Below are positions 3,644-51,456 of a DNA stretch of 55,288 bases, piece after piece (positions within the stretch are counted from its first letter, which is position 1; each line of letters opens with the position of its first letter). The notes below the pieces were generated by a model that saw only the letters and a program-made list of their open reading frames with translations, was not told the origin of the DNA and ran no database searches. Source of the DNA: Lachnospiraceae bacterium (GTDB lineage Bacteria > Bacillota > Clostridia > Lachnospirales > Lachnospiraceae); assembly GCA_017397645.1 (NCBI GenBank), contig JAFQIE010000035.1, positions 1-55,288 on the forward strand, in the 5' to 3' direction. Both the position numbers and the translations under genes were made by a program.

Positions 3644-4276
3644 TTAATACACAAATCCACGCCCTACGATATCCGCCCAAGCTTCATCGTCAATTTCTTC
3701 ATCTTTGAAAAGTTTGCGTTTGTCTGCTTCGGTGATTGGTCTTATCACTCGGCAGGGATTTCCCGCAGCTACACACCAGTCAGGAATGTCCTTTGTCACC
3801 ACGCTACCCGCACCAATTACCACATTATCTCCGATATGTACACCGGGACATATGACTGTGTTGCCACCAATCCAAACATTGTCTCCGATGGTAATTTCTT
3901 TTCCATATTCATATAACGAATTACGGGTAGAAGGGTAAATGGGATGCCCTGCCGCATAGATTGCCACATTGGGCGCCATCTGGCAGTTGTCACCAATTTT
4001 CACTTTTGCCACATCTATAATGGTGCAGTTATAGTTTGCAAAGAAATTTTTACCCACCTCAATATGGGAACCATAGTCGCAATAAAACGGCGGATTGATA
4101 AATGCTCCTTCAGACTTGCCCAAAAGTTCCTTTACCACCTCAGCGATGCCGGCAAAATCACTTCTATCCATAAAATTCAGCCTTTGCAAAATCTTTCTGC
4201 ACTCTGCCTGCTGGGCCATAACTGCACCATCAGAAATATATGCCATTTCTTTATCTCTGCGTTCAATGTTATCCAT
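3644..4276 (-). CDS. Sugar O-acetyltransferase (LacA/Maa type, hexapeptide repeat)
   Basis: About 210 residues. A left-handed beta-helix is evident from hexapeptide repeats (ITIGDNVWIGGNTVICPG, VHIGDNVVIGAGSVVTKD), with the family block NYNCTIIDVAKVKIGDN and the catalytic-His segment AAGHPIYP. Galactoside and maltose O-acetyltransferases transfer acetyl from acetyl-CoA to sugar hydroxyls as trimers. The ATG at 4276 is preferred (GGAG nine bases upstream); it overlaps the stop of the XRE gene by 8 bases, so the two are probably translationally coupled. Confidence 0.85.
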   Translation of the reverse strand: MDNIERRDKEMAYISDGAVMAQQAECRKILQRLNFMDRSDFAGIAEVVKELLGKSEGAFINPPFYCDYGSHIEVGKNFFANYNCTIIDVAKVKIGDNCQMAPNVAIYAAGHPIYPSTRNSLYEYGKEITIGDNVWIGGNTVICPGVHIGDNVVIGAGSVVTKDIPDWCVAAGNPCRVIRPITEADKRKLFKDEEIDDEAWADIVGRGFVY

Positions 4277-6041: not shown

Positions 6042-7490
6042 ATGAATAAAAGAAAGATTTTTTTAGTTACAATAATTATCATTTTATTAGCGACTGTGGG
6101 AGGTATTTTTTACTTTATTTGGCTCCCCCAATATCAGGATAAAAAAGCAAGGGAAAACGATGTTGCAGTCGTATCCGGTGAGTCATTCCAACAGTTACTT
6201 GCATCAAATTTCGACACAGATCTTTTGGATGCTTATCCATTGGAATATTTTAGAGGTTACGCCACCTACAAAGCAGAGTATCGTTTTAAAGACAACTTCG
6301 ATTTGGCAGACTATCTGAACACCGTATTGGCGGTAAATCAAGATGTTTTAGAGGTATATACTTTTGTGGCAGTAGAAACCGAAGAAGACAAAGCAACCGA
6401 GGATTCCACCGAAAAAATCACTCTGCAGGATGTTGTGCAAACTTATCCCTATGTCACTTTCCGATTTATGCTTCCGGGATATTCTCTTGATTATCTGAAG
6501 GCGCAGGAAATCGCTGTGGCTGATGCCTATTATGAGCAGCTTCTCGGCTTTTACGAAAACCTTGCCCCTTATTCTAATGTCGTATTCTATTATTTCGGCG
6601 ATGTGGATTGGCTGATTTCTAATCCGGCGAACTACGTGGATGGTATGATTTGCAATAGAGATGTGAATACCCATTTGATGACCCAGACGCTGGCAAGTGA
6701 TGATTATATGGTGGACGAGGATGGTCTGGAGCCACTGCTTGAAAAGGTGCAGAAACGCGTGACCAGAGAAAAAATAACTCCTCCCGACAGCTACCCTATG
6801 CCGGATACCGCCATCGTGTTTATGGGCGACAGTATTATAGGTAATTTCAAAGGTTCTCTTTCCATACCGGGATTTGTAGGCGGATTATCCGGCGCAAACA
6901 CGTATAACTTTGCCGTAGGCGGAACAACTGCCTCCTCAGAGACCGCAGATACAGAAGAAGGTTTTCACCAGATGCTTTCTTACTTTCTGAACGGGGAGGG
7001 TATGATCGAACATGAAAATGCCAATGCGGAAATTGAAAGATTTAAGAAGGAATACAGAAAAAATCAGAAACTTTGCTTCGTGATAGGATTTGGATTAAAT
7101 GATTATTTCACCGGGCGCGTTGTCGCAACAACGCCGGACGCAGATATCACCACTTTCTACGGAGCACTCAAGTCCGGTATCTTAAGGATAAAAGAAGTTT
7201 ATCCCAATGCAGAGTTTGTCCTGCTGACGCCACCCTATGTGCTATCCTTTGAGTATGGCTCCTTGATACAAAGCGATGTGGGAGGCAATCTATTGGCTTA
7301 TGTAGAAACTGTGGCCGCAGTTGCAGAAGATTTGGATGTTACTTGGATTGACCAATTTTACGGCTTGGATATTTACAAAGACAATGTTCTTGATTATCTT
7401 CTGGACGATTGTCACTACAACGAAAAAGGCCGCATATTGATGGCGAGAAATATGTTGCCGTATTTGTATGATTTATTGGCAGAAAAATAA
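6042..7490 (+). CDS. Membrane-anchored SGNH/GDSL-type hydrolase
   Basis: 482 residues. An N-terminal signal anchor (~5-28) is followed by a ~220-residue extracellular region I do not recognise, then an SGNH hydrolase domain from ~residue 250. Block I is IVFMGDSIIGNF (nucleophile Ser), block II has GANTYNFAVGG, block III is GFGLNDYF (GxND), and block V is DDCHYNEKG with the Asp-x-x-His pair. This family includes acyl esterases acting on cell-surface glycans. The gene is monocistronic: its own promoter lies upstream and a 16-bp terminator hairpin begins at the stop codon. AGGCAG is a modest ribosome binding site. Confidence 0.75.
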   Translation: MNKRKIFLVTIIIILLATVGGIFYFIWLPQYQDKKARENDVAVVSGESFQQLLASNFDTDLLDAYPLEYFRGYATYKAEYRFKDNFDLADYLNTVLAVNQDVLEVYTFVAVETEEDKATEDSTEKITLQDVVQTYPYVTFRFMLPGYSLDYLKAQEIAVADAYYEQLLGFYENLAPYSNVVFYYFGDVDWLISNPANYVDGMICNRDVNTHLMTQTLASDDYMVDEDGLEPLLEKVQKRVTREKITPPDSYPMPDTAIVFMGDSIIGNFKGSLSIPGFVGGLSGANTYNFAVGGTTASSETADTEEGFHQMLSYFLNGEGMIEHENANAEIERFKKEYRKNQKLCFVIGFGLNDYFTGRVVATTPDADITTFYGALKSGILRIKEVYPNAEFVLLTPPYVLSFEYGSLIQSDVGGNLLAYVETVAAVAEDLDVTWIDQFYGLDIYKDNVLDYLLDDCHYNEKGRILMARNMLPYLYDLLAEK

Positions 7491-48286: not shown

Positions 48287-48411
48287 CTGATTTTTTTATT
48301 TTTCCTCATTTTTTATTGCACAAAAAAAGCCGAAAACCCGCGTATTTGCTAAGTCTCCGACCTATAAGTGGACCGCCAGGGGCTCGAACCCTGGACACCC
48401 TGATTAAGAGT
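48287..48411. repeat. Left attachment repeat (attL) with tRNA-Lys 3' fragment
   Basis: Identical over 125 bases to 51302-51426. Bases 48369-48411 are the 3' half of tRNA-Lys (from discriminator to the anticodon loop, minus strand); the tRNA 5' half is absent, so this copy is not a functional tRNA. Identity stops exactly inside the anticodon sequence (AAGAGT), a normal crossover site for tyrosine recombinases. Confidence 0.93.
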
Positions 48412-48436
48412 TATATGTTTTTTACTCTGCATACAA

Positions 48437-48464
48437 AAAAGGAATGCTTTTACGCATTCCTTTT
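48437..48464. terminator. Second, outer terminator hairpin of the element
   Basis: Stem AAAAGGAATGC/GCATTCCTTTT of 11 bp with a 6-base loop; six A precede it on the plus strand, giving a T-run on the minus strand. Confidence 0.65.
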
Positions 48465-48572
48465 CGTCTACGACTACCTTACTTTCACTCGTTCTTTGGT
48501 CAGAAAGGAAGTTTACACTTGTATTATCTCTTTCTTTCTGCTTTATTTCAAGCACTTTATATTTATTTAAGA

Positions 48573-48599
48573 AAAAAGAACGCTATGTGCGTTCTTTTT
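48573..48599. terminator. Terminator after the RHH gene
   Basis: Stem of 11 bp with loop TATGT; on the minus strand followed by six T and placed about 50 bases past the RHH stop. Symmetric enough to act in both directions. Confidence 0.75.
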
Positions 48600-48651
48600 C
48601 TCGTCACTATTTATTTTTTTGGAGACTATGAACATTTATGCCATAAGCCAT

Positions 48652-48915
48652 TTAATCATTTGGTTTATTAACCTTTTCAAATCCCATTTTGAATGATTTC
48701 TTTATTTTATCTGCACTTGACATATCTTTGTCTGCTGCAATCGTCACCATTGTTTCTATTTCGCCGTGCTCTCTTTCATATTCTTCTATATGTTTCTCTA
48801 TTAACCATTCTAATTCCTTGGCTACACTTCTTTTATTGGCACTTGCTATCACACGCATTTTTGATATATTTTCGTGTGTTGTATTTGCTTTAATTATTGG
48901 TAAATTTGATGGCAT
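48652..48915 (-). CDS. Ribbon-helix-helix (Arc/CopG-type) DNA-binding protein
   Basis: 87 residues. PIIKANTTHENISKMRVIAS followed by NKRSVAKELEWLIEKHIEEY has the beta-strand, helix, Ser-containing turn, helix pattern of Arc-family RHH proteins (~residues 6-50); a charged C-terminal tail of ~35 residues follows. GGGAGGAAAATAAAA sets the ATG. Likely autoregulator or copy-number/excision regulator of the element: palindromic sites lie in the divergent upstream region. pMV158 itself carries the RHH repressor CopG, but there upstream of and co-directional with repB. Confidence 0.75.
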   Translation of the reverse strand: MPSNLPIIKANTTHENISKMRVIASANKRSVAKELEWLIEKHIEEYEREHGEIETMVTIAADKDMSSADKIKKSFKMGFEKVNKPND

Positions 48916-49127
48916 TTTTATTTTCCTCCCTCAAGATTGACAAAGTGGGTTGACAGTTGTACTACCTTATGTTATTTTAAAGGTAGGTCTTAAGTAGTAC
49001 TACTTTAGTTCAACTTGAGATACACTACGCAAATTATACATTATTTTTTGTATATTTGCAAGGTTGAGTTGGGGTTCTGGGAAATTGCCCCAACTTAACC
49101 AAATTATATTTATAAAGGAGATTGTCT
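48916..49127. promoter_or_regulatory. Divergent regulatory region with palindromic operators
   Basis: Between the RHH gene and the plus-strand ORF. A plus-strand promoter TTGACA (48950-48955), 17 bases, TATTTT (48973-48978) is overlapped by inverted repeat CTACCTT/AAGGTAG (48962-48968, 48980-48986) and followed by a perfect 14-bp palindrome AAGTAGTACTACTT (48992-49005); TTGTACTACCT at 48957-48967 resembles half of it. These are good candidates for RHH binding. Confidence 0.6.
49062..49100 (+). promoter_or_regulatory. Leader hairpin before the small ORF
   Basis: GGTTGAGTTGGGG (49062-49074) pairs with CCCCAACTTAACC (49088-49100), 13 bp with one G-T pair and a 13-base loop, in the 5' leader of the ORF at 49128. 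No T-run follows, so a translational or single-strand-DNA role is more likely than termination. Confidence 0.55.
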
Positions 49128-49409
49128 ATGAGTGCTTTATTTTTGTCGTTTCAACATTGGTGCAAGGAGTGTAGTGATTACGAGTTATGTACTGCACTAA
49201 AGAATATCAAAATTATTCGTGCGAGTGTAGAGCCATCAACTCATCAGGAATTATGGAATAGTATTGATGTTCATTTTCTTATGCTACATAACGAAATGGA
49301 ACGTCGGTTTTGTGGTTCTGCTGGGTATCAAGGAGCAAACCCATCTGCAGTGAGCGATGAGCGAGCCAAGATAACTACAAGTCCTTGTTCTTCTCTTGAC
49401 GGCGAGTAG
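49128..49409 (+). CDS. Small hypothetical protein of the element
   Basis: 93 residues, soluble (MSALFLSFQHWCKECSDYEL, HFLMLHNEMERRFCG). Three of its four Cys fall in CxxC-like spacing with few hydrophobics; no family recognised. A strong AAAGGAG lies seven bases before the ATG, so translation is likely. It is the only candidate accessory gene of the element apart from regulation, replication and integration. Confidence 0.5.
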   Translation: MSALFLSFQHWCKECSDYELCTALKNIKIIRASVEPSTHQELWNSIDVHFLMLHNEMERRFCGSAGYQGANPSAVSDERAKITTSPCSSLDGE

Positions 49410-49525
49410 TCGGCGCAGAATACTAATCTGACAAGTAATGATAGTGTTCTTAATTAACCATTTTAATCTTAACTAATCAATTTCTTGAACTATAGCGGAT
49501 ATAGTAAATCTTGAACGGATAGACA

Positions 49526-49565
49526 GTCGCTCCGGGGATCCACTTTAGTGGCCCCCGGGTGCGAC
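49526..49565. other. Large imperfect hairpin, possible single-strand origin
   Basis: GTCGC-t-CCGGGG-at-CCACT-TT-AGTGG-c-CCCCGG-gt-GCGAC: three stacked stems (5, 6 and 5 bp) spanning 40 bases, the most GC-rich stretch of an AT-rich element. It lies in a gene-free stretch upstream of the replication origin. A single-strand origin (lagging strand start) or conversion signal is the best guess; a structured RNA is the alternative. Confidence 0.5.
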
Positions 49566-49635
49566 AATTTCTTTAATACCTTAATCCCTTATATCCAACT
49601 TTTATTTATACTTGGTTGTAAATCTGTTTTTGGGG

Positions 49636-49664
49636 GTGTTGCTACTACTTGACAATAGCAACAC
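49636..49664. repeat. Inverted repeat upstream of the origin
   Basis: GTGTTGCTA (49636-49644) and TAGCAACAC (49656-49664), perfect 9-bp arms, loop CTACTTGACAA. Confidence 0.7.
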
Positions 49665-49688
49665 TTAAGCGACTTTTTATGTATGGCT

Positions 49689-49728
49689 TGACACAAATTG
49701 CCACTACGACTAAGCAATTTGTGTGTCA
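49689..49728 (+). other. Predicted double-strand origin (dso) nick hairpin
   Basis: TGACACAAATTGC (49689-49701) pairs with GCAATTTGTGTGTCA (49714-49728, two extra bases), presenting loop CACTACGACTAA. pMV158-family initiators nick TACTACG/AC in exactly such a loop; CTACG/AC is present. This supports the HUH protein at 49835 being a pMV158-type rolling-circle initiator with its own origin directly upstream of it. Confidence 0.75.
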
Positions 49729-49812
49729 TGTGTCAAATATAGAATATATCCCTTATTTTTAAGGGATAAACGGCTTTTATTTTGTTTCTTTGTACTGTGT
49801 CAACTGTGTCAA
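49722..49812 (+). repeat. Iteron-like TGTGTCA(A) repeats at the origin
   Basis: TGTGTCA at 49722-49728 and TGTGTCAA at 49729-49736, 49796-49803 and 49805-49812; the last two are adjacent (9-base period). An 8-bp inverted repeat TATCCCTT/AAGGGATA (49747-49754, 49761-49768) lies between. In pMV158 the initiator binds short direct repeats next to the nick hairpin, so these are candidate Rep sites. Confidence 0.6.
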
Positions 49813-49834
49813 ATTTCATAATAATGGAGTGCCT

Positions 49835-50401
49835 ATGAAAAATTCAGATAATTATAGAAATAGAACTCATTGTTTACTTTTATATCCCGATGATATAACA
49901 CATGTTAATGCTTTGAATATTATAAAAAAGTCTTATGATTACGCTTTTGCTTTACATGATAAAGATATTCAAGATAATGGTGAACCTAAAAAACCGCACT
50001 GGCATGTAGTTCTTCGATTTGAACAGGCTCACTGGTCATCTGCTATTTGTAATGATTTAGGCATTAGTGAAAATTATATTGAAAAATCTCGAAGCTTTGT
50101 TAACTCCTTGCTTTATCTTATACATTATAATGACCCTGACAAATATCAATATAGCACTGATGTTGTGCAAGGCACTTTGAAAAAAAGACTTTTAGTTGAA
50201 ATGAGTAAGAGTGACAAAACTGAGTGCGAAAAGATATTAGAGATTAATGACTTTATCAAAAGTCATGCTCAACCACTAACTGAAGAAGAATTACTTGAAT
50301 TTTGTTGTCATTCTGGTTGCTGGTCTGAATTTAGACGTTCTGCAACTATCATTTTACGGATACTTGATAAACATAATCTTAAATACAAGGATTTTAGGTG
50401 A
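49835..50401 (+). CDS. repB: Rolling-circle replication initiator (Rep_2/RepB, HUH endonuclease)
   Basis: 188 residues. The metal site is visible as ALHDKD (H41, D44) and KKPHWHVVL (H55, H57, the HUH motif), and the nucleophile Tyr as Y94 in SLLYLIHYNDPDKYQYS. This order and spacing are those of pMV158 RepB. It would nick the origin at 49689-49728 and start rolling-circle replication of the excised circle. The ATG at 49835 is set by GGAG; the longer frame starts at a TTG within the iteron region. The integrase follows after seven bases, so the two are co-transcribed. Confidence 0.88.
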   Translation: MKNSDNYRNRTHCLLLYPDDITHVNALNIIKKSYDYAFALHDKDIQDNGEPKKPHWHVVLRFEQAHWSSAICNDLGISENYIEKSRSFVNSLLYLIHYNDPDKYQYSTDVVQGTLKKRLLVEMSKSDKTECEKILEINDFIKSHAQPLTEEELLEFCCHSGCWSEFRRSATIILRILDKHNLKYKDFR

Positions 50402-50408
50402 TTGACCT

Positions 50409-51305
50409 ATGACAATTAGTAAAGCCTTTGAAAATTTCATATTGTCTCGTAGGCTTGCTGATTTATCACAAAAGACTATACATGATTATTGTATGTTCAT
50501 TGTGCCGTTTATCTCGTATTTGGGGGAAAATAGGCTTGTTTCAACCATTACTCAAGATAACATAAATCAGTATATAGATATTATCCTAAATAAGCCTATT
50601 TCGAAGTCAAGCCGTGCTACATATATTCGACATATAAAGGTTTTCCTTAAGTGGCTCTCAGAAGATTGTAAAGTATCTTATAACTATAAGCGCATTAAAG
50701 TTCCTAAATCTCCTAAAAAGAATGTGAAAATATATGATAGTTGTGAACTACTTAAAATCTTTGATACTGTTCGTGCTGAAAGTGACTGGCTGACCTTTAG
50801 AAATAAATGTATTGTTGCTCTCATGTATGATAGCGGTCTCCGACAATCAGAAGTTTGTAATTTGGAAATTGCTCGTGTGTCATTCAGGGAAAATAGAATG
50901 GTTGTGTATGGAAAAGGTAATAAAGAACGCACGGTACCGCTCGGGCATCTTGCATCTGAATACATGAAAAAATATTTGTCACTTTGTCCGTTCCCGTCTG
51001 AAAAAGTCTTTGTTAATAGATATGGAAAACCATTGACGTGTAATGCGGTCAAATTGTTGATAAGCAAAATATCCAATGAGTTGGATTTCGATTTTTCGTC
51101 TCATAAACTACGGCATAACTTCGCCACCAATTATTGCATTGACCAATATGAAGAATATGGTCAAGTAGATATATACCGCCTTATGATACTTATGGGTCAT
51201 GAAGATGTAGAAACCACGAAACGATATCTGCACCATGCAAATGAAATAATAGGTACAAAAAACTGCATATCACATCTTGATAAAGTAATAAATGGGGAAA
51301 ACTGA
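50409..51305 (+). CDS. Tyrosine recombinase (integrase) of the element
   Basis: 298 residues. N-terminal SAM-like core-binding domain (~5-85: KTIHDYCMFIVPFISYLGE), catalytic domain with SGLRQSEVCNLE (Arg), HKLRHNFATN (His-x-x-Arg), GHEDVETTKRYLHH (His and nucleophile Tyr). XerC/D-like in length, without an extra arm-binding domain. It should integrate and excise at the anticodon region of tRNA-Lys. The stop codon TGA (51303-51305) is already inside the right attachment repeat. Confidence 0.93.
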   Translation: MTISKAFENFILSRRLADLSQKTIHDYCMFIVPFISYLGENRLVSTITQDNINQYIDIILNKPISKSSRATYIRHIKVFLKWLSEDCKVSYNYKRIKVPKSPKKNVKIYDSCELLKIFDTVRAESDWLTFRNKCIVALMYDSGLRQSEVCNLEIARVSFRENRMVVYGKGNKERTVPLGHLASEYMKKYLSLCPFPSEKVFVNRYGKPLTCNAVKLLISKISNELDFDFSSHKLRHNFATNYCIDQYEEYGQVDIYRLMILMGHEDVETTKRYLHHANEIIGTKNCISHLDKVINGEN

Positions 51306-51426
51306 TTTTTTTATTTTTCCTCATTTTTTATTGCACAAAAAAAGCCGAAAACCCGCGTATTTGCTAAGTCTCCGACCTATAAGTGGACCGCCAGGGGCTC
51401 GAACCCTGGACACCCTGATTAAGAGT
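51302..51426. repeat. Right attachment repeat (attR) overlapping tRNA-Lys and the integrase stop
   Basis: Identical to 48287-48411 for 125 bases. It comprises 82 bases downstream of the tRNA (with T-rich DNA) and the tRNA 3' half, so the tRNA here is restored to full length by the joined 5' half. Confidence 0.93.
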
Positions 51427-51456
51427 CAGGTGCTCTACCAACTGAGCTAGCGGTCC
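51384..51456 (-). tRNA. tRNA-Lys (CTT)
   Basis: 73 bases: acceptor GGACCGC/GCGGTCC, discriminator A, D-arm GCTCAGTTGGTAGAGC, anticodon loop CTCTTAA with anticodon CTT, T-arm GGGTTCGAGCCC. CCA is not encoded. Its 3' half is duplicated at 48369-48411 by the integrated element. Confidence 0.95.

Follow-up and report, generated by a model that had tools for sequence, protein, structure and literature searches.

A compact initiator-integrase element at a tRNA-Lys gene of a Lachnospiraceae bacterium and its kinship with inoviruses

The window analysed here is a stretch of 55,288 nucleotides (nt) from a Lachnospiraceae bacterium (contig JAFQIE010000035.1, positions 1 to 55,288), and our subject is an element of about 3 kb that is integrated in it at a tRNA-Lys gene and encodes a replication initiator (Rep) and a tyrosine integrase (Int). 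Judged from its sequence, the element combines attachment (att) repeats at tRNA-Lys with intact Rep and Int genes, a predicted nick hairpin 5' of Rep, and relatives of its Rep, integrase and regulator among inoviruses. It is bounded by an exact direct repeat of 125 nt, to which no strand is assigned, with copies at 48287-48411 and 51302-51426 and a period of 3015 bp; the perfect 125-bp repeats around a block of about 3.0 kb that an initial annotation of the sequence had reported are thus exact. The left copy consists of a displaced 44-bp 3' part of tRNA-Lys and a further 81 bp. The right copy contains the Int stop codon and extends to the anticodon loop of the intact tRNA-Lys(ctt) gene on the minus strand (51383..51456; ARAGORN; 68.9 bits with the Rfam tRNA model), which is the integration target. 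A chance repeat is ruled out because 125 bases are identical and include a portion of a tRNA. The unique insert between the repeats measures 2890 bp, with a G+C content of 34% versus 43% for the window, and the element was found once in its source genome (assembly of 1.81 Mb, 74% complete).

Four genes lie within the 3 kb between the repeats: a ribbon-helix-helix (RHH)-like regulator on the minus strand (48652..48915) and, on the plus strand, an open reading frame (ORF) of 93 amino acids (49128..49409), Rep (49835..50401; 188 amino acids) and Int (50409..51305; 298 amino acids). The initial annotation had named the same genes. Its assignments hold for Rep, a Rep_OBD-type initiator without a helicase domain (PF01719, E=1.9e-16), for Int (PF00589, E=1.4e-33) and for the 93-amino-acid ORF, which matches no family model; the RHH assignment is weakly backed by family models (PHROG Arc-like, E=0.016; no Pfam match over the cut-off). 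The RHH-like protein does belong to a family found across related elements and in the inovirus prophages L067 and L073, as seen in alignment A3 and in profile matches. Residues that we take to be catalytic are invariant in both enzymes, namely H55xH57 and Y94 of Rep (alignment A2, n=8) and R145, K169, H232, R235, H264 and Y273 of Int (alignment A1, n=11). A search of solved structures with Rep gave no match. The 93-amino-acid ORF may belong to a weak family of small, acidic mini-element proteins (E=0.74 in a leave-one-out profile test). Because only 7 bp separate Rep from Int, there is no excisionase gene between them. Among the family-model matches of the four genes there is neither a Zot/pI morphogenesis ATPase nor a coat protein, and neither the ORF list nor these matches include a TcpA coupling protein.

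The region 5' of Rep is highly structured. Single-strand folding of 49500-49834 gave a z-score of -4.6, and none of 100 shuffled sequences folded equally well. The features described here are all given on the plus strand. A hairpin at 49691..49724, with an 11-bp stem, carries ACTACGAC in its loop (49703-49710), which corresponds to eight of the nine bases of the nick 9-mer TACTACGAC that an excerpt on the pMV158 family places in a hairpin (PMC3387028). Two copies of a direct repeat with bind-like TGTGTCA units (repeat family D7) follow at 49720..49738 and, just 5' of Rep, at 49796..49814. Inspection by eye shows inverted repeats around this 8-mer also in plasmid pLA106 and in two small Rep_OBD contigs from the same bacterial family; in one of these three records the site immediately precedes Rep. 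Because of the likeness to the pMV158 9-mer in a hairpin, the same 8-mer in Rep_OBD replicons and the TGTGTCA repeats, we predict that 49691-49724 is likely the element's own double-strand origin. The element has the traits of a pMV158-type replicon: a Rep_OBD protein with an HUH motif and a putative catalytic tyrosine, and a nick-like hairpin loop with downstream repeats. A second, strong GC-rich hairpin at 49526..49565 (-28 kcal/mol as RNA) may be a single-strand origin, a packaging signal or a terminator. An origin-like hairpin had been noted before; a candidate nick hairpin does exist at 49691-49724, and the GC-rich one, perhaps the one meant, fits less well.

The integrase defines a family of such elements. 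When 299 genomes of this bacterial family were searched with it, 10 places besides the window matched at E<=1.6e-58, and after a clear gap generic integrases started at 8e-27, with one lower-scoring fragment (G111:C78). Scanning public genomes for the pattern of the integrase alignment, an approach that finds only part of the existing loci, returned 65, of which 53 (L058-L110) form the clade; L111-L122 were excluded as distant or short matches. These 53 are partly non-independent (L061 is a near-copy of L062, the Ints of L090 and L091 are identical, and one genome contains both L092 and L094), and by record names they belong mostly to Lachnospiraceae or to genera assigned there, the rest to other Clostridia/Bacillota. 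A complete tRNA-Lys stands at the 3' end of Int in 38 of the 53 and only its 3' part in 8; three have tRNA-Arg, one tRNA-Phe, one tRNA-Phe and then tRNA-Lys, and in two the contig is too short. Among 20 generic integrases used as a control, two lay within 1.5 kb of a tRNA-Lys. At 27 loci there is a Rep gene together with a repeat of 40 nt or longer, and our own model detected no Zot; one of these (L095) was left out because its repeat falls inside Int. The remaining 26 compact Rep+Int elements have periods of 2607-6192 bp, 22 of them at 2.6-3.9 kb. Rep-Int pairs between tRNA-derived repeats, which the initial annotation had proposed to look for elsewhere, therefore occur in 26 of 53 clade loci. 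We found no report of this mini-element family in the open-licence literature. One clade member of 6.2 kb at a tRNA-Arg (L096, 815-7054) encodes a G2P-like Rep and Int and has apparent cargo in place of virion genes.

While the integrase lineage persists, the initiator is exchanged among four kinds, as read from sequence comparison. With kinds set by our own profiles and representatives checked against Pfam, the 26 elements carry G2P-like (PF23343) initiators in 12 cases, Rep_trans (PF02486) in 11 and CRESS-like Reps with helicase traits in three (L061, L062, L090); the Rep_OBD protein of the window is a fourth kind beside these. The best integrase tree (44 rows) requires 11 changes of initiator type, many of its forks being weak. 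The window and L058 are grouped (95/85) within a supported clade of six (99/93) that includes three initiator types. A tblastx comparison of the window with L061 showed matches in the att region and in the genes for regulator and integrase; the initiator was not among the matches listed.

This mixture of initiators bears on the reading of the element as an integrative and mobilizable element (IME), in which Rep would be a non-canonical relaxase nicking an origin of transfer (oriT), and an integrative and conjugative element or a conjugative plasmid would transfer it. Excerpts of a survey of streptococcal IMEs join tyrosine integrases to relaxases of the PF02486, PF01719, PHA00330 and PF01719+PF00910 types (PMC5357655). 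The four kinds of mini-element initiators resemble those relaxases, if, as we infer, PHA00330 corresponds to the G2P-like type, and the window element does have a tyrosine integrase and a rolling-circle replication (RCR)-type protein at a tRNA 3' end. However, it has neither a coupling protein gene, an absence that is not exclusionary for an IME, nor an excisionase gene; it falls below the range of 5-18 kb (one at 53 kb) stated for IMEs in those excerpts (PMC5357655); and the closest relatives found are inoviruses. We consider transfer as an IME quite improbable.

The evidence for kinship with inoviruses comes from the integrase, the regulator and the initiator. Within the Int clade, three apparently complete inovirus prophages lie between tRNA-Lys repeats, at 6.2 kb (L190/L087), 7.2 kb (L188/L073) and 8.1 kb (L189/L067). 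Zot was matched in L087 (E=5e-19) and L073 (E=2e-24); that of L067 is divergent, with no Pfam match and a weak PHROG Zot-like match (E=0.002), and a coat-like ORF of L087 matched the major coat family at E=0.01 only. A further locus, L069, resembles a truncated inovirus prophage. Members of the window's RHH family occur in L067 (40% identity) and L073 (28%), and the best integrase tree requires three switches between inoviruses and mini-elements. Lachnospiraceae and kin contain prophages of inoviruses, or segments that are likely such, at L188, L189, L190, L269 and L270, the first three each with a dedicated tyrosine integrase. It might be argued that the mini-elements are decayed inovirus prophages, remnants that persist after losing their virion genes. 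They do have the Int clade, the regulator family and the site in common with inovirus prophages, and in 19 of the 53 clade loci, including short fragments, our own profiles recognised no Rep. Random decay would nevertheless hardly be expected to leave exactly Rep, Int and both repeats, as is seen at 26 loci, 22 of them at 2.6-3.9 kb; the 11 initiator changes on the best tree likewise speak against it. We regard decay as very unlikely.

Among 50,697 phage records, the window Rep had 39 matches, comprising 23 bajarodino viruses, 12 entries named Inovirus sp. and 4 Dulem viruses, and it is in this sense an inovirus-type rolling-circle initiator. The best match was bajarodino virus 66 (E=1e-43; 42.7% identity over 94%). 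All seven of the 39 records that were opened are Inoviridae with an annotated Zot. Bajarodino virus 66 has the same order as the window, with a minus-strand repressor followed by Rep on the plus strand, and 5' of Rep it carries a TACTACGAC hairpin and TGTGCCA repeats, one of them directly before Rep; its repressor did not match the window RHH protein. The motif CTACGAC stands between inverted repeats in three of the seven opened inoviruses (5' of Rep in L273, 1.1 kb upstream in L275, just downstream in L280). In searches among their own ORFs, RHH relatives were found in L280 (E=2e-6), which has this Rep type, and in Dulem virus 51 (L276; E=9e-8). The latter, found via its integrase, encodes Zot, a Rep_trans protein and a related recombinase (33%, E=3e-32); the recombinase of Dulem virus 71 (L277) did not match the window Int at E<=1e-3. 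The 93-amino-acid ORF had no tblastn match in phage records, and scans of viral contigs with the single window Rep and Int sequences returned no match.

The same searches speak to the possibility that the element is an autonomous integrative rolling-circle plasmid, which excises, replicates and reintegrates, and which moves by transformation, by accidental packaging or never, its likeness to inoviruses reflecting shared modules. The genes present would suffice for this, genomes with mini-elements show no enrichment of inovirus markers, and excerpts of one study describe integrated rolling-circle plasmids without virion genes for CRESS-like Reps (PMC6668415). In 72,556 plasmid records, however, the window Rep had 68 matches, all below 60% identity (at most 38.7%, with a best E of 3e-11, among the 40 listed), so that the closest Reps found are those of inoviruses. 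Nor was there a close relative of Int, the top-ranked match reaching 30.3% among the 20 of 2755 matches listed. A life as a plasmid, as the initial annotation had envisaged, thus finds little in these records to rest on. Its comparison with actinomycete integrative and conjugative elements (AICEs) or archaeal integrative plasmids likewise had no support in the matches examined, the nearest relatives found being inovirus prophages and free inoviruses. The plasmid reading also leaves a second, inovirus-type box (below) unexplained, and we hold it to be unlikely, if worth keeping in mind.

This second box, TACTTGACNNTAGCAACACTT (49646-49666; TACTTGACAATAGCAACACTT at 49646), is overlapped by a hairpin at 49636..49664, and a shorter form of the box occurs upstream of viral Reps. 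It was first spotted as common to the window, L066 and L082, the latter two having initiators of other kinds. Among the studied loci, exact copies occur only in the window, L066, L068 and L082 (and their copies) and in the inovirus locus L154; the window copy is exact, and the chance expectation in the window is 0.02 even at up to three mismatches. The 16 fixed bases of the box were found in 18 IMG/VR stretches. Nine of these code for a G2P-like Rep, whose frame lies 3-88 nt downstream of the box in eight cases and 455 nt downstream in one; Zot is encoded in eight of these nine. The box resembles an origin that belongs to another inovirus type, here in an element with a different initiator; on this sequence evidence, either a helper's initiator may use the box or an earlier swap may have left it as a relic. 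The window's closest sisters, L058 and L059, have a different variant of it; the variant TACTTGACATAGTATCAT was found in three viral-contig stretches, none with a Rep or Zot by our own models. A 13-kb viral contig (L179, 10696-12927) also bears a TACTTGAC..TAGCAACA box and encodes a G2P-like Rep with an adjoining distant integrase (E=6e-21), no Zot being detected by our own model.

A different hairpin accompanies the Rep_trans initiators. The TACGGGGG of a hairpin CCCCCG..AGTAATACGGGGG lies 5' of Rep in 9 of the 11 Rep_trans mini-elements, at a distance of 865 nt in one and 35 nt inside the called frame in another, and in the inoviruses L067 and L069. A loose form of it was found in 74 stretches of viral contigs, of which, by our own models, 62 encode Rep_trans and 18 Zot, mostly distant from the Rep start in the linear viral record. 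The hairpin CCCCCGNNNAGTAATACGGGGG is repeated across these 74 stretches (L192-L265), including the 62 with Rep_trans, and is perhaps a widespread origin or attachment hairpin of Rep_trans inoviruses.

The target site has features of its own. Repeats often extend far beyond the tRNA, by 81 bp in the window, by up to about 110 bp in L099 and by merely 5 bp in L083, and these extensions differ among hosts and are near-identical inside each genome. The attachment site of the element (attP) therefore appears to agree with the host in which it sits, a hint of long residence or of concerted evolution. A permease gene 5' of tRNA-Lys is conserved in the genus, both genes being present in 8 of 10 fetched loci (L143-L152). 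L143 and L147 have a second tRNA-Lys 3' part on the opposite side, 0.5 and 1.4 kb off, as in an integration hotspot. Left flanks of the window and of 25 of the 26 mini-elements (that of L079 is too short) were searched for integrase remnants, which are clear in L061 and L062 and weaker in L081 and L088. A remnant of an earlier Int in the left flank of the window, suggested by a short likeness seen by eye, was rejected, as the search gave no significant match there. In L061 the tRNA-Lys repeat is present in three copies (1015-1091, 3692-3787, 7075-7170), and in both L061 and L062 a remnant of an integrase N-terminus adjoins the element, suggesting that elements accumulated in tandem and decayed at this one site.

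Our results suggest that the element is very probably an integrative mini-replicon of inovirus lineage, with a regulator, an initiator and its origin and a tRNA-Lys integrase, and without morphogenesis genes. The best overall explanation is probably that of an inovirus replication-integration module that lacks virion genes, excises itself, is copied by rolling-circle replication and spreads with the aid of helper inoviruses, much as RS1 does. Int would recombine the repeats, releasing a circle of 3015 bp and restoring the site; Rep would nick the hairpin loop at 49703-49710 and start rolling-circle replication; and the RHH protein may repress excision or replication. Single-stranded circles might then enter new cells inside helper inovirus virions, and the helper's Rep may additionally fire the second box at 49646. 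Packaging by a helper is the more tentative component, a possibility to which we give somewhat less than even weight.

Several observations weigh against this explanation. No Zot match was present in the source genome (74% complete), and helpers are not enriched in genomes with mini-elements: PF05707 exceeded its cut-off in 3 of the 29 genomes that carry Rep+Int clade loci and in 24 of 299 family genomes (4 strong), and profile A4, which was recovered in its 3 source genomes as a control, had no match in either of two overlapping sets of genomes with clade loci (12 and 29 genomes). These results lower the case for a helper without removing it, because a satellite need not share a cell with its helper. 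The RHH protein had no tblastn match at E<=0.01 in all phage records, and the scans of IMG/VR contigs gave 7 loci, with 22-46% identity in the segment that matched, none of them a member of the Int clade. CTACGAC is absent from four of the seven opened inoviruses with this Rep type, the 8-mer ACTACGAC by itself has one match in the window where 0.43 are expected, and nine of the 18 box-bearing viral stretches, which may be chance matches, lack both Rep and Zot. A replaced initiator could have left the second box behind as a relic, and the long repeats suggest residence in one host lineage and not recent transfer. Neither a 3015-bp circle nor a virion was seen, nor was an exact empty site found, the left-flank permease not being beside tRNA-Lys in the relatives examined. 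The minimal integrative replicon that the initial annotation had proposed is therefore borne out in its own initiator and plausible origin, and not in an excised circle or exact empty site.

Two candidate signs of excision were set aside. The 3211-bp contig of L059 begins with the apparent last 55 bases of the repeat and its ends share 18 bases; we infer a k=55 assembly-graph node, which fits an integrated copy equally, and L059 was not used as evidence of a circular form. Contig ends near Int were too mixed for use. Inovirus-like segments were found in two of the three PF05707 genomes with mini-elements (L269, L270) and in family genomes (L157, L158), and a mini-element and a likely inovirus segment share a genome at L079 (Lachnoclostridium sp. 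An14) and L102 (Fusibacillus kribbianus YH-rum2234).

If our explanation is correct, Lachnospiraceae have, among their smallest integrative elements, some that are linked to inoviruses and not to conjugation, and the four initiator kinds are interchangeable parts around a single integrase lineage. It also becomes testable which role RCR-type proteins play in compact integrated elements, that of a relaxase, that of a replication initiator or both, a question that the excerpts on streptococcal IMEs leave open as well (PMC5357655). A more far-reaching version, which we put forward as a doubtful possibility, is a large family of filamentous-phage satellites in Gram-positive gut bacteria, with one tRNA-Lys integrase lineage, four swapped initiators and no virion genes, spreading inside particles made by inoviruses with the same integrase site; the window element would add to this a foreign inovirus origin for the helper's initiator.

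In summary, what is new is the kinship of a Rep-Int mini-element with inoviruses, and the element stands at the small, inovirus-related end of a known spectrum that includes IMEs, pCRESS plasmids and RS1. The tRNA-Lys inovirus prophages (L188/L073, L189/L067, L190/L087) share its integrase clade and repeats; L067, L073, Dulem virus 51 and bajarodino virus 68 share RHH relatives; and the bajarodino viruses share its Rep family, with a nick hairpin and repeats in bajarodino virus 66. Unlike the window element, however, these prophages and the circular gut inoviruses (bajarodino 66 and 68, Dulem 51) encode Zot/pI and further genes in 4.5-8.1 kb. Members of the pMV158 family have a Rep_OBD initiator and a nick 9-mer hairpin with downstream repeats as the window does, whereas the window element is integrated at a tRNA with its own integrase and finds its closest Reps in inoviruses. 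According to the excerpts, streptococcal IMEs similarly join a tyrosine integrase to an RCR-type initiator, with integrases mainly at the 3' ends of tRNA or ribosomal-protein genes, and show modular exchange, but they are larger, possess an excisionase and have TcpA in 83 of 118 (PMC5357655). The pCRESS integrated plasmids, as excerpted, are site-specifically integrated rolling-circle plasmids without virion genes, like the present family (PMC6668415); the window Rep, in contrast, has no helicase domain, and the mini-element family is defined by its integrase and not by Rep. The comparison closes with a satellite. RS1, a satellite of the Vibrio filamentous phage CTXphi that is packaged by its helper, is very small and joins a regulator and a rolling-circle initiator to an integration function without virion genes. 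It differs in using host Xer recombinases in place of an integrase of its own, in its Gram-negative host and, as an excerpt states, in encoding an antirepressor (PMC4439123), none being recognised in the window element. Inovirus-type replication, regulation and integration functions without virion genes are nonetheless what the window element has, and by analogy RS1 appears to be its nearest working model.

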